From the NCBI GenBank assembly GCA_028707105.1, contig JAQTUY010000088.1, forward strand, positions 1-6,730: DNA of 6,730 nt, in the 5' to 3' direction. The notes beneath the pieces are model-generated. The model did no database searches. It had not been told where the DNA came from and worked only from the letters and a program-made list of their open reading frames with translations. Both the position numbers and the translations under genes were made by a program. Origin of the DNA: Candidatus Omnitrophota bacterium. Its GTDB lineage: Bacteria; Omnitrophota; Koll11; Gygaellales; JAQTUY01. Of the stretch, positions 2,713-6,730 are shown in pieces (position 1 is the stretch's first letter; the number at the start of each line of letters is the position of its first letter).

Positions 2713-4266
2713 ATGTTATACCTCGCCTTTATCTACCATATGCACCAGCCTTATTATAAGGACCTTCTAACGGGCATGAGCCCTTTTCCCTGGGTGCGCC
2801 TTCATGGCATTAAAGATTACCTGGATATGGTTGAAATACTGCGTAGGTTTCCGGCAGTGCATCAGACCTTTAACCTTGTGCCTTCCCTTATAGAACAACT
2901 TGAGGATTATACGGCCGGAACGGTCAAAGACAGGTTTGTCGAGCTCACCCTTAAACCGGCGATCGAGCTTACCGCGGATGATCAGAAGTTTTTGCTTGAG
3001 CGTTTTTTTTCCATATTCCCCGATTATTGTATTGCCGTATCCCCGCGTTATTATGAACTATATTTAAAGAATAAGATCAAGGCCCCGTTCAGTACGCAGG
3101 ATTACTTGGACCTGCAGGTATGGTTTAACCTGGCCTGGTTTGATCCGTCTTTTAAGCAGAGTATGCCGGTCCTGCGCGACCTGGTCCGCAAAGCCCGTTT
3201 TTTTACCGAAGAAGATAAGCGTTTATGCCTGGATGCGCAACTCGAGGTTTTAAACAGGGTGATACCGGCGTATAAGGAGTTCATGGGCAAGGGGCAGGTT
3301 GAGGTCATATTGAGCCCGTTTTATCATCCCATTCTCCCGCTTTTGTATAACAGTAACATCGGCAAAGAAGCAAACCTGCGGGCTGTCTTGCCTAAAGCAG
3401 TGTTTAACTATCCGCAGGACGCCAAGTCTCAAGTCGACAGCGCGATATCTTTCTACAAGGAGCGGTTCGGCGCCCTGCCGCAAGGGATGTGGCCTTCGGA
3501 GGAATCAGTCTGTGAACATATACTCCCGATCCTCATTGACTCCGGAATTAAATGGATCATTACCGACGAAGCCATACTTTTTAAATCGTTAAGGAAGAAT
3601 AAAAGGGATACCCGGCTTATCTACAAGCCGCACCTGCTTAAAAGGAAGGATGGGCAGCTCAGTATCATTTTTCGCGACCGTAACCTTTCCGACCTTATCG
3701 GTTTTGAATATCACCGTTATCCCAAAGCGGAAGATGCCGTAAATGATTTTATGAAGCACCTGGAGAATATCGACAAGGCTTTTAAAGGGAAGGACCCGTT
3801 CGTGGCGGTAGCCCTGGACGGGGAGAATGCCTGGGAGTATTACCGTAATGACGGCCACGATTTCCTGGAGCTTCTTTACGCGCGGCTTTCGGAAAGTAAC
3901 TTCTTAAAATGCGTGACGGTAAATGAGTATTTGAATGAACGGCCCGCTAAAAATAATATAAAACACCTGGCAGCCGGCTCATGGATTAACGGCGATTTTT
4001 CCAAGTGGATCGGTTCGCCTTACAAGAACCTGGCCTGGGAGTATCTGATCAAGGCGCGCCGGGAATTTGAAAGCGTCAGCTCCGACTTTAAGGATTACGA
4101 ACTGGCGCGCAAGCAAATGGCGATCCTTGAGGGCAGCGATTGGTTCTGGTGGTACGGGGATGACCCCGGATATTTTGATGAACTTTTTCGCATGCATTTA
4201 TCCAATTTTTATAGTATAATAGGTAAAGATGTACCCGGGTATTTAAATAAGCCTCTTGAGCCGTAA
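2713..4266 (+). CDS. Glycoside hydrolase family 57 (alpha-glucan-active, amylase-like)
   Basis: 517 residues with no signal peptide, so a cytoplasmic enzyme. GH57 enzymes are retaining alpha-glucan hydrolases or transferases (alpha-amylase, amylopullulanase, 4-alpha-glucanotransferase, branching enzyme). The expected motifs appear in order: HMHQP at residues 9-13 (region 1), SPFYHPILPLL at 201-211 (region 2), GMWPSEES at 258-265 with E263 as likely nucleophile (region 3), and VALDGENAWE at 366-375 with D369 as likely acid/base (region 4). The C-terminal part is helical and aromatic-rich (SDWFWWYGDDPG), typical of the family. The start fits because the (beta/alpha)7 barrel begins at residue 2, but no Shine-Dalgarno sequence precedes it. 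Specificity cannot be set from motifs alone; hydrolysis or remodelling of stored glycogen is the natural guess given the glycogen-binding ParA fusion two genes downstream. Confidence 0.92.
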   Translation: MLYLAFIYHMHQPYYKDLLTGMSPFPWVRLHGIKDYLDMVEILRRFPAVHQTFNLVPSLIEQLEDYTAGTVKDRFVELTLKPAIELTADDQKFLLERFFSIFPDYCIAVSPRYYELYLKNKIKAPFSTQDYLDLQVWFNLAWFDPSFKQSMPVLRDLVRKARFFTEEDKRLCLDAQLEVLNRVIPAYKEFMGKGQVEVILSPFYHPILPLLYNSNIGKEANLRAVLPKAVFNYPQDAKSQVDSAISFYKERFGALPQGMWPSEESVCEHILPILIDSGIKWIITDEAILFKSLRKNKRDTRLIYKPHLLKRKDGQLSIIFRDRNLSDLIGFEYHRYPKAEDAVNDFMKHLENIDKAFKGKDPFVAVALDGENAWEYYRNDGHDFLELLYARLSESNFLKCVTVNEYLNERPAKNNIKHLAAGSWINGDFSKWIGSPYKNLAWEYLIKARREFESVSSDFKDYELARKQMAILEGSDWFWWYGDDPGYFDELFRMHLSNFYSIIGKDVPGYLNKPLEP

Positions 4267-4330: not shown

Positions 4331-4888
4331 ATGAAGAAAAAAGAAATATACGAACATTTAGCGGATATTTACCTGAGTTCTCCTAAGAAAAAGAAGGCGA
4401 AATCCGCGTATTCGATAAAGATCGATAAGAACACGCTCTTTGTCAGTTTAGCGACTATAGCTGTTTTTATTATTTTTATATCCGTGATCAGGACGCCCAG
4501 AGGCGTATCCAGCCTGGCCCTGGTGGTCCAGCCGCAAGCGGTTAAGATAAATTACGACCTTGGCGTTGTCAAGAGGGAAGTTTATTCCCTGGACCTGACG
4601 AACATGGACCTTTCCCGGTTCCGGGCGGTGAGCTTCGCCGTAAGAAAAAGCAATCCGGGCGATAATGTCCATTTGAAACTGGAGATGAACAGTTCTTTCC
4701 GGGAGGTCTCTGAGGTCTATATTTCCGGCCTTAAGGACAAATGGCAGGAGTTCCATATTTTTTTCAGGGATTTCAAGGGTATCTCCGATTGGTCGCGGCT
4801 GACCCGTATTTCTTTTGTGGTGGAGGAGTGGAACACCAGGGATAAGAAGGGCGTAATTTACATAGACGATATCAAGTTTTTAAGGTGA
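4331..4888 (+). CDS. Bitopic membrane protein with extracytoplasmic beta-sandwich-like domain
   Basis: 185 residues; I do not recognise a named family. Residues 1-34 are lysine-rich and predicted cytoplasmic (KKKEI, PKKKKAK). Residues 35-53 (TLFVSLATIAVFIIFISVI) form one transmembrane helix, and residues 54-185 would lie outside. That domain has alternating beta strands and ends in VIYIDDIKFLR. The YIDDI-type ending is common in galactose-binding-like jelly rolls such as CBM11 or CIA30-like domains, so carbohydrate binding is plausible but unproven. There is no LPXTG motif, lipobox or cleavable signal; the helix acts as a signal anchor with N-in topology. It lies 73 nt before the ParA fusion with no strong terminator between, so the two may share a message. 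The predicted promoter implies leaderless translation starting at this ATG. Confidence 0.8.
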   Translation: MKKKEIYEHLADIYLSSPKKKKAKSAYSIKIDKNTLFVSLATIAVFIIFISVIRTPRGVSSLALVVQPQAVKINYDLGVVKREVYSLDLTNMDLSRFRAVSFAVRKSNPGDNVHLKLEMNSSFREVSEVYISGLKDKWQEFHIFFRDFKGISDWSRLTRISFVVEEWNTRDKKGVIYIDDIKFLR

Positions 4889-4907: not shown

Positions 4908-4970
4908 CCGGCGCTTATGGGTTTTGCGCCGGCGGCCCCGTGTGGGGCAGGAGGTTAAAATATGCGCCGG
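4908..4970 (+). promoter_or_regulatory. Structured translation-initiation region of the ParA-fusion gene
   Basis: CCGGCGC (4908-4914) can pair with GCGCCGG at 4926-4932. An identical GCGCCGG at 4964-4970 starts on the G of the ATG, so the same strand could instead cover the start codon. Between them lies GCCCC-GTGT-GGGGC (4935-4948), a tetraloop hairpin. AGGAGG (4949-4954) follows directly, 7 nt before the ATG at 4962. The ribosome-binding site is certain. The switch-like alternative pairing is inferred. Neither hairpin has the T tract of a terminator. Confidence 0.5.
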
Positions 4971-6053
4971 ATCTCGATCGCGAATCAAAAAGGTGGTTGC
5001 GGTAAAACTACAACCGCGATAAACTTAGCGGCATCGTTATCTGCCAACAAGCGCAAGGTATTATTAATAGACCTCGATCCCCAGGCGCACGCCACTCTGG
5101 GCTTAAACATAAACCCCACGCTTAATATTTATAACGTCTTGTCCAGAAGCACATCCCAGAAGGCCGAGCTTCAGGATATTATAGTCAACATATCGCCTGA
5201 CTTTGACCTTGCTCCGTCGGGGATCATCTTAAGCATCCTTGAGCAGGAATTAGCCGGCGAGATCGGCAGGGAATCGATCCTTTTCGACGTTTTGAATAAT
5301 TTCAAAAGCGATTATGATTATATACTGATAGATTGTCCTCCGAATCTGGGGATTCTGACTATTAACGCGATCAGGTCAAGTTCTGAGGTCCTTGTGCCGA
5401 CCGAAGCCAGCAAGTTTTCCCTGGATGGCCTGGGCCAGCTAATAGATATTGTCAGCCTGGTTAAGGAACGCCTTAATCACAAGGTAGCCCAGCGTGTTTT
5501 AGTGACTAATTTTGATTCCCGCCTGCGGTATTCCTTTGGCATGCTTGATAAAATAAAGCAGATATTTTCCGAAGACCTGTTCCAGACCATAATCCACGTG
5601 AACGTCAAGCTTAAGGAAGCCCAGAGCGAAGGGGAGCATATTTTACTTTACGATAAATACTCCCGGGGAGCCAAGGATTATTTCAGCCTGGCCAGGGAGA
5701 TCATTACCCAGGAGGATTGGCCGGATGGAAAGAGACCGGTAGATCTCTCTAAAGAGATGCATAAAGAAGTAAAGAAACAGCTTCCCAGGATGAGGGAGGT
5801 TGTTTTTGCCCTTCCCACCATCGATGCCAAAGAGGTGCATGTGGCCGGTGATTTTAACGGCTGGCAGGTCGATGATTCAAGCCGTATGGAGTTTAAGGAT
5901 GATGCGGGCGGATGGGTAAAGAAACTTCCTTTGCAATCCGGGCGTTACCGTTACCGCTTTGTAGTGGACGGTAAGTGGATCGAGGATCCCAATAATCCTG
6001 ATAAAGAAAAGAATCCTTTTGATGCCATGGATTCTTTGTTGAAAATAGATTAG
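4962..6053 (+). CDS. ParA-type ATPase fused to CBM48/AMPK-beta-type glycogen-binding domain
   Basis: 363 residues in two domains. Residues 1-250 are a ParA/Soj-like P-loop ATPase: deviant Walker A KGGCGKT (10-16, with signature K10 and K15), LIDLDPQAHAT (35-45), Walker B-type LIDCPPNLG (122-130), TEASKFSLDGL and the ParA-typical end YDKYSRGAKDYFSLARE. Such proteins dimerise with ATP, bind DNA nonspecifically and move or position cargo. After a charged linker (about 250-277), residues 278-363 match the AMPK-beta glycogen-binding module: VAGDFNGW (294-301), GRYRYRFVVDGKW (327-339), then EDP. W301 and W339 align with the two glycogen-contacting tryptophans of AMPK beta (W100, W133), and R332 falls where AMPK has K126. 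There is no ParB in the window and no frameshift or stop at the junction, so this is a true fusion. A role in positioning or sensing glycogen is inferred. The start is set by AGGAGG 7 nt upstream. Confidence 0.93.
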   Translation: MRRISIANQKGGCGKTTTAINLAASLSANKRKVLLIDLDPQAHATLGLNINPTLNIYNVLSRSTSQKAELQDIIVNISPDFDLAPSGIILSILEQELAGEIGRESILFDVLNNFKSDYDYILIDCPPNLGILTINAIRSSSEVLVPTEASKFSLDGLGQLIDIVSLVKERLNHKVAQRVLVTNFDSRLRYSFGMLDKIKQIFSEDLFQTIIHVNVKLKEAQSEGEHILLYDKYSRGAKDYFSLAREIITQEDWPDGKRPVDLSKEMHKEVKKQLPRMREVVFALPTIDAKEVHVAGDFNGWQVDDSSRMEFKDDAGGWVKKLPLQSGRYRYRFVVDGKWIEDPNNPDKEKNPFDAMDSLLKID

Positions 6054-6070: not shown

Positions 6071-6484
6071 ATGGCTGTTAAAAAGCTAAAAAAGAAGCCG
6101 GTCAAAAGGCCGCTGCCTAAAAAAAAGTCAATCTCCAGGAAAAAGTCGTCTCTGAAGAAGGTTCCGGCAAAAAAAGCCAAGAAATCCGTAAGGGCTCCTG
6201 AGAAAAAGGCCGTTTTAGCAACGAAGAAAAAGGCCGAAAAAGGCGTAGTTGTCGGAATTATTACGCATTATTTCCCCAAGGTCAGGGCCGCGGTAATAAA
6301 GTTAAAAGCTCCTTTATCCGTGGGTGATACTATCAGGGTCAAGGGGCACACCACAGACTTTACCGAAAGCATAAATTCTATCCAAATAGACCGTGTTCCT
6401 ATCAATGCCGCAAAAAAAGGCCAGGAGATAGGGCTTTTAGTGAATTCCCGCGTCCGGCAGCACGACCTGGTTTATAAGGTCTAA
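6071..6484 (+). CDS. Lysine-rich-tailed EF-Tu domain-2-like small protein
   Basis: 137 residues. Residues 1-57 are histone-H1-like: by my count 23 Lys and 3 Arg, mixed with Ala, Pro and Ser and no hydrophobic core (KKLKKKPVKRPLPKKK and so on), predicted disordered and able to bind nucleic acid. Residues 58-137 form a compact beta barrel like translation factor domain 2: VVVGIITHYFPKVRAAVIKLKAPLSVGDTIRVKG, then INSIQIDRVPINAAKKGQEIGLLV. There is no GTPase domain, so it is not a truncated EF-Tu; stand-alone proteins of this type are often annotated as translation-elongation-factor-like. The ribosome-binding site is AGGAGG (6056-6061) within a G-rich run, 9 nt before the ATG. It lies 17 nt after the ParA-fusion stop, so it is probably co-transcribed. 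Binding to rRNA, the ribosome or DNA is possible; the function is unknown. Confidence 0.8.
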   Translation: MAVKKLKKKPVKRPLPKKKSISRKKSSLKKVPAKKAKKSVRAPEKKAVLATKKKAEKGVVVGIITHYFPKVRAAVIKLKAPLSVGDTIRVKGHTTDFTESINSIQIDRVPINAAKKGQEIGLLVNSRVRQHDLVYKV

Positions 6485-6501: not shown

Positions 6502-6730
6502 ATGACACTGGCGATAGCCATTATTGCCAAAGACGGGATTGCCGTTGCTTCTGACAGCCGGGTCACCTCCGGAGACCCCCGCGGCCCGACTACGGTAAAT
6601 GATACGGTCAAGAAGGTTTTTGGATTAGGCGATTTTTGCGGCTTGACCCTGGCAGGGGATGGGGGGTTGGGAGCCAGCCTGATCGATGTTATTTATTATG
6701 AACTGCATAAAAGGCCGGAATATACCCGGT
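6502..6730 (+). CDS. Proteasome/HslV-like Ntn hydrolase, N-terminal part (runs off the window)
   Basis: 76 complete codons are visible before the window ends. After Met1 comes Thr2; removal of Met would expose Thr as N-terminal nucleophile. Counting that Thr as 1, Asp falls at 17 and Arg at 19 in AVASDSR, exactly the spacing of proteasome beta subunits and HslV. A lysine pair follows in NDTVKKVFGLGD, close to the family's catalytic K33 region, then LTLAGDGGLGASLIDVIYYEL, the family's glycine-rich turn and first helix. The protein is likely a threonine-type peptidase or amidohydrolase of the 20S/HslV fold. HslV proper and other bacterial proteasome-like proteins (Anbu and relatives) are alternatives. 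AAAGGG (6488-6493) lies 8 nt before the ATG, and the gene starts 17 nt after the previous stop. Confidence 0.75.
   Translation, partial: MTLAIAIIAKDGIAVASDSRVTSGDPRGPTTVNDTVKKVFGLGDFCGLTLAGDGGLGASLIDVIYYELHKRPEYTR

Follow-up and report, generated by a model that had tools for sequence, protein, structure and literature searches.

What would a ParA-type ATPase do with a glycogen-binding domain built into its own chain? The question is raised by positions 1 to 6,730 of contig JAQTUY010000088.1 from a Candidatus Omnitrophota genome (GCA_028707105.1), the 6,730-nucleotide stretch of DNA that was analysed and is called the window below. A preliminary description of the window, made from the sequence alone, had read one of its ORFs as a complete ParA/Soj ATPase with an AMPK-beta/CBM48-type module at its C terminus, and had proposed a domain search, a structure prediction of the C-terminal part and a phylogenetic survey as checks. 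It had offered two readings: the module could recognise a polysaccharide granule as cargo, in place of the usual separate partner, or glycogen binding could tune a ParA cycle acting on something else. All protein genes of the window (PHP-domain, porin-like, GH57, membrane protein, ParA fusion, lysine-rich protein and the start of a hydrolase) and a tRNA-Arg gene were found on the + strand. The features were as follows.

17-84, inverted repeat of the ggtctgacccc type just before the tRNA gene, seen by eye
89-163, + strand, tRNA-Arg
1155-2609, + strand, porin-like gene (Alginate_exp, PF13372) upstream of the operon
2713-4266, + strand, GH57 alpha-glucan enzyme of 517 aa, upstream of the candidate partner gene
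4331-4888, + strand, candidate partner of 185 aa with a conserved N-tail, a TM helix (33-53) and a CBM11-like jelly roll
4962-6053, + strand, ParA ATPase with a C-terminal AMPK-beta/CBM48-type module, 363 aa, ATG start (Pfam, PDB match, AF2)
4962-5711, + strand, ParA/Soj ATPase domain, residues 1-250, with the KGGCGKTT Walker A, signature lysine K10, D37/D39, D124 and K216
5712-5789, + strand, linker, residues 251-276, with a model helix at 260-273 (pLDDT 63-72)
5790-6050, + strand, glycogen-binding domain, residues 277-363, with W301 (5862-5864), W318 (5913-5915), W339 (5976-5978), R332 and D357
6071-6484, + strand, 137 aa protein with an EF-Tu-domain-2-like barrel (PF03144 below cut-off), 17 bases downstream of the fusion
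6502-6729, + strand, start of a bacterial proteasome-like Ntn hydrolase, running off the window end

The N-terminal half of the 137 aa protein is extremely lysine-rich, and this neighbour is conserved in Omnitrophota. A strong hairpin with a T run was seen by eye near 2630-2660, after the porin-like gene.

The fused architecture was borne out by the domain search, in which a ParA profile matched, and the glycogen-binding profiles scored above cut-off, in the single ORF at 4962-6053. AAA_31 (PF13614) matched residues 1-175 (6.3e-53), AMPK1_CBM (PF16561) matched residues 288-348 (2.3e-10; 41 bits against a cut-off of 26.8), and CBM_48 (PF02922) also matched (5.2e-5; 23.9 bits against 22.4). Residues 277-363 alone retrieved the solved glycogen-binding domains of AMPK beta subunits with a best E value of 1.2e-7. 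The AF2 model of the fusion had a mean pLDDT of 93.4, and from residue 281 onward the values were 92-98 per ten-residue block. Structure matches of the model by VIA-align were ParA chains aligned over residues 1-257, with the CBM outside the aligned range, and the window protein has the Soj/ParA fold. A deposited protein that is 99% identical to the fusion (P0001) bears the title 'AAA family ATPase [Candidatus Omnitrophota bacterium]'. A search of titles and abstract starts in the open-access literature, preprints not covered, found no description of a ParA joined to a glycogen-binding domain, in agreement with the earlier statement that no characterised protein of this architecture was known to its author.

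A fusion confined to one assembly could be an artefact, and its spread was therefore surveyed. In the genome-collection scan the best 80 loci of 564 relatives were used; the CBM was reached in 79 of these 80, and the remaining one (L046) ended at a contig edge. Of 145 Omnitrophota genomes at least 98 carried the fusion (80 by listed matches that covered both domains, and 18 by fetched sequence), and it also occurred in several other phyla. Because it recurs so widely, an assembly artefact was ruled out. Twenty Omnitrophota proteins were fetched, 18 in which only the ParA part had been aligned and two with full-length matches (G140 and G122), and all 20 carried the CBM, mostly behind a long linker; a different C-terminal module was thereby excluded among them. 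Six Desulfobacterota proteins (L101-L106) are sister ATPases that share the KGGCGK Walker A and, by eye, end in an acidic tail instead of the CBM.

Residue conservation was counted in 107 CBM-bearing proteins, leaving out L046 (truncated), L101-L106 and L113 (no CBM), and L115 and L116 (duplicate places). The deviant Walker A with its signature lysine, Walker A' and Walker B were present throughout the family, K10, C13, K15, D37, D39 and D124 each being invariant (107/107); the cysteine of KGGCGK is thus constant. R187 was conserved in 106 of the 107 proteins, and position 216 was K or R in 89. In our own alignment K216 of the window protein fell on R238 of Myxococcus xanthus ParA, whose R238E variant is reported to lack DNA binding (PMC12462528). 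By this alignment K216 is a predicted DNA-contact lysine, and an ATP-dependent dimer, DNA binding and partner-stimulated hydrolysis are predicted properties of the fusion.

In the glycogen-binding domain we followed the carbohydrate-contact positions of AMPK named in PMC4032982 and PMC2642990, W100, K126, W133 and N150. The two tryptophans were kept as the preliminary description had claimed: the equivalent of W100 (W301) was tryptophan in all 107 proteins, and that of W133 (W339) in 105, the exceptions being one K and one Q (L095 and L114). At the K126 position 84 proteins had R or K and 23 had Q; at the N150 position 60 had N and 45 had D. In the window protein these positions are occupied by R332 and D357, so N150 is not kept there, and a third tryptophan (W318) is present in the domain beyond W301 and W339. 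Across relatives, the stretch between ParA and CBM ranged from 21 to 183 residues, beside a ParA core segment of 122-123 residues and a CBM of 69-74. A linker of such variable length between domains of constant length suggests a tether.

The CBM had been suggested to stand in for the separate partner through which ParA proteins normally reach their cargo. Gene order spoke against this part of the proposal. Outside Omnitrophota, the gene downstream of the ATPase was often MinD-like, with a P-loop that looked degenerate by eye in several lineages, and other partner types also occurred (in Desulfobacterales, for example, a cysteine-containing protein). The neighbour-ORF scan covered 87 of 129 candidates (109 were within the size limit, and 22 more were omitted by eye, some as likely antisense and some as already scanned). 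The neighbours of L062 and L071 matched CbiA/MinD models in Pfam, and no convincing Pfam match was obtained for the remaining partner and third-gene proteins scanned.

These unrelated downstream proteins had in common an N-terminal motif, for example LGRGLEDISHLFLS. The initial motif pattern, run over 3599 ORFs, gave 17 matches, of which 15 lay near the N-terminus of a gene directly downstream of the ATPase. When LG[RK]G[LIMF] was sought within the first 45 residues at 27 loci (non-Omnitrophota and L052), 10 of the 36 ORFs directly downstream had it, as against none of 945 others; the p value for LG[RK]G enrichment, 1.2e-15, is a guide only, as patterns were chosen after some partners had been seen and related loci are not independent. 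The same test on fetched Desulfobacterota loci and one G012 locus gave 1 of 13 adjacent downstream ORFs against 0 of 265 others. Looser forms were picked out by eye (RGLEQVARFYLS, RNLREISHFFLS, LPRDLADVLHYFLP and RKQLEEIAHLYFS), and loci with no recognised motif alongside include L064 (where the contig ends), L066, L068, L073, L074, L101-L105 and L114.

The LG[RK]G core of the partner motif is that of ParB. The N-terminus of HpParB is given as MAKNKVLGRG (PMC11229316), M. xanthus ParB is reported to contact ParA through L11, L15, L18 and I19, with R13 (PMC12462528), and N-terminal peptides are described as a shared means by which partners address ParA/MinD ATPases (PMC10241942). No ParB gene adjoined the fusion in the neighbourhoods examined, and 12 of the 14 regions fetched from carrier genomes contained an LG[RK]G-type ParB together with a ParA distinct from the fusion. 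The true ParB in these genomes, beside its separate ParA, starts LG[RK]G-L/I-x-A-L, so the motif of the dedicated partner departs from it after position 5. The CBM-less sister L106 also has a motif-bearing neighbour, a 102 aa protein with ERGLEEISHIFLSDG, and the motif therefore goes with the ATPase rather than with the CBM. Judged from gene order and this shared motif in several phyla, the ATPase is unlikely to be partner-free, and outside Omnitrophota it probably has a dedicated partner.

In Omnitrophota, a membrane-protein gene lay upstream of the fusion in 44 of 54 loci by BLAST, a block in which L014 and L018, titled otherwise, were counted, and in five further Omnitrophota loci the upstream membrane protein was grouped with it by its tail and layout. 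In the window protein at 4331-4888 the N-tail consists of a model helix (3-15) followed by a lysine-rich stretch, and the positive-inside rule would place the CBM11-like jelly roll outside the membrane. The hydrophobic spacing of the tail looked similar by eye to that of the partner motif. The LG[RK]G core was absent from the Omnitrophota block, where none of 76 adjacent downstream ORFs and none of 933 others had it, and a profile trained on the motif of the other phyla ranked the membrane protein first in just 6 of 50 loci. Equivalence of the two motifs thus failed the profile test and is offered here as conjecture. Since neither the profile nor the core lends support, the proposed role of this membrane-anchored protein rests on its position and conservation, and we regard it as a candidate partner of the fusion.

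Whether the ligand is glycogen was considered from the genes near the fusion and elsewhere in the carrier genomes. A GH57 gene was found upstream near the fusion in 19 of the 41 Omnitrophota loci with enough flank. In the Desulfobacterota genome G190, one strand carried in a row GH57, a glycogen synthase (GT3)-phosphorylase, the ParA-CBM fusion, a partner whose motif is of a looser form, and the third gene; the genome gave no GT5 match at E 1e-30. GT5 was nearly universal in Omnitrophota with or without the fusion (92/98 and 39/47, respectively; Fisher p 0.067), and the association was not significant. Among seven CBM-bearing Desulfobacterota genomes, five had a strong GT5, one GT3 (G190) and one (G005) only weak GT5-like matches; GT5 at 1e-30 was found in 109 of 148 genomes of the Desulfobacterota sample, which gives the background level.

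Carriers outside Omnitrophota, mostly MAGs of unstated completeness, were less uniform: of 24, six had a GT5 match better than 1e-60, eight had weak ones only and ten had none at 1e-10. Nine of them bear Myxococcota or 'Deltaproteobacteria' titles (G007, G008 and G306-G312), and in these GT5 amounted to one partial match (1e-22) and GH13 was found in one, with both tryptophans kept in all nine; neither GH57 nor phosphorylase was found in the two Myxococcota-type carriers tested. A relative of these nine (L068/G015) had GH57, GH13 and a weak GT5 match, and each of the other 15 carriers had at least one match among the tested alpha-glucan families. Neighbours outside Omnitrophota included phosphoglucomutase/phosphomannomutase (4/87) and GalT-like proteins (3/87). 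With the contact residues, the GH57 genes and G190 on one side, and the Myxococcota-type nine, the scarcity of strong GT5 matches outside Omnitrophota and the lack of a significant association within Omnitrophota on the other, the CBM is likely to bind an alpha-glucan. Storage glycogen is the best guess for this ligand, though it may not hold universally. A polysaccharide granule, put forward in the preliminary description, would be a possible cargo.

Comparison with known systems helped to place the fusion. From ParA/Soj of ParABS it differs by the cysteine in Walker A, the C-terminal CBM and a neighbour that is not ParB. It shares profile, PDB match and contact positions with the AMPK beta subunit, but here the domain is joined to a ParA ATPase rather than to a kinase subunit, and the N150 position is often D, including in the window. 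BcsQ of cellulose secretion is likewise a ParA-type ATPase tied to a polysaccharide, and the window protein matched its profile PF06564 (2.6e-13), scoring 81.9 bits with the NCBIfam BcsQ equivalog against a cut-off of 157.85. We know of no glycogen-binding domain in BcsQ. McdA, PomZ and other cargo-positioning ParA/MinD ATPases are described as acting on non-DNA cargo with a partner whose N-terminal peptide is activating (PMC10241942, PMC13170346), and the likeness proposed here lies in these two properties; glycogen is unmentioned in the main text of PMC10241942. In those systems the partner links the ATPase to its cargo, whereas in the fusion the ATPase itself carries the carbohydrate-binding domain.

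The reading that we favour, held tentatively at slightly short of an even chance, is a second, dedicated ParA system. Its ATPase would carry an alpha-glucan module of its own on a tether of variable length, and a separate partner would act on it by way of a ParB-like N-terminal peptide. ATP-bound dimers of the fusion would sit on the nucleoid, the CBM would hold alpha-glucan (glycogen) particles, and the partner, which in Omnitrophota would probably be the upstream membrane-anchored protein and elsewhere often the downstream MinD-like protein, would trigger ATP hydrolysis and release. Glycogen particles would then be tethered and spread over the nucleoid, away from the partner. The usual layout would be inverted, the ATPase riding on the cargo and the activator sitting elsewhere. 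In its fullest form, with the ATPase on the granule, the nucleoid as track, an activating partner in the inner membrane of Omnitrophota, and glycogen spread and shared at division, such inverted positioning is unlikely.

The two readings first offered, cargo recognition and tuning by glycogen, proved to be proper alternatives, and AMPK-like sensing is the main rival of a tethered ParA. A glycogen-sensing ParA, in which alpha-glucan on the CBM tunes the ATPase cycle and the cargo is the structure of which the partner forms part, is a serious alternative that we nevertheless consider rather improbable. AMPK is reported to be allosterically inhibited through this same domain (PMC2642990). In Omnitrophota the cargo would be an envelope assembly centred on the membrane-anchored protein, perhaps with the nearby porin: the candidate partner there is membrane-bound and has a CBM11-like domain, and porin relatives lay upstream of the fusion in 32 loci, one of them more than 7 kb off. 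Because L106 retains its motif-bearing neighbour without a CBM, glycogen is probably not needed for the core machine to work, which also suits sensing. A linker of 21-183 residues, however, is easier to reconcile with a tether than with tight allosteric coupling.

Should the ligand instead be a different alpha-glucan-like polymer or oligosaccharide, such as a precursor of capsule or envelope polysaccharide, the system might help to position envelope or polysaccharide-export machinery, in loose analogy to BcsQ and cellulose. The carriers with no convincing glycogen-synthesis genes point in this direction, as do the phosphoglucomutase/phosphomannomutase and GalT-like neighbours outside Omnitrophota and the CBM-less sister L103, which adjoins a Wzz/tyrosine-kinase-type protein. 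We think this quite unlikely, as the AMPK-type contact set is kept in most of the CBMs and alpha-glucan enzymes adjoin the fusion in many Omnitrophota and in G190. E-set domains are widespread folds with many roles outside carbohydrate binding, and the CBM could be a passive or protein-binding domain of this kind on a standard orphan ParA; conservation of the contact tryptophans across phyla makes so ordinary an accessory very improbable.

Many little-studied bacteria have a ParA-type ATPase with a built-in glycogen-binding domain and apparently its own partner. This suggests that a machine of the chromosome-segregation type may serve to position, or to sense, carbohydrate stores. Active positioning and inheritance of stored glycogen in bacteria would become directly testable with such a widespread pair, and the tag motif of the partner may be a route to the partners of other orphan ParA proteins.

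The non-Omnitrophota loci showed two further regularities. A conserved third gene followed ParA-CBM and the partner (L107 1784-2359, L057 2811-3491, L071 9940-10734 and others); the third-gene proteins scanned matched no Pfam family, and by eye the product resembled a PD-(D/E)XK-type fold. A gene for a MerR-like regulator, also recognised by eye, lay directly upstream of ParA-CBM in L057, L059, L072, L075, L110 and L111.
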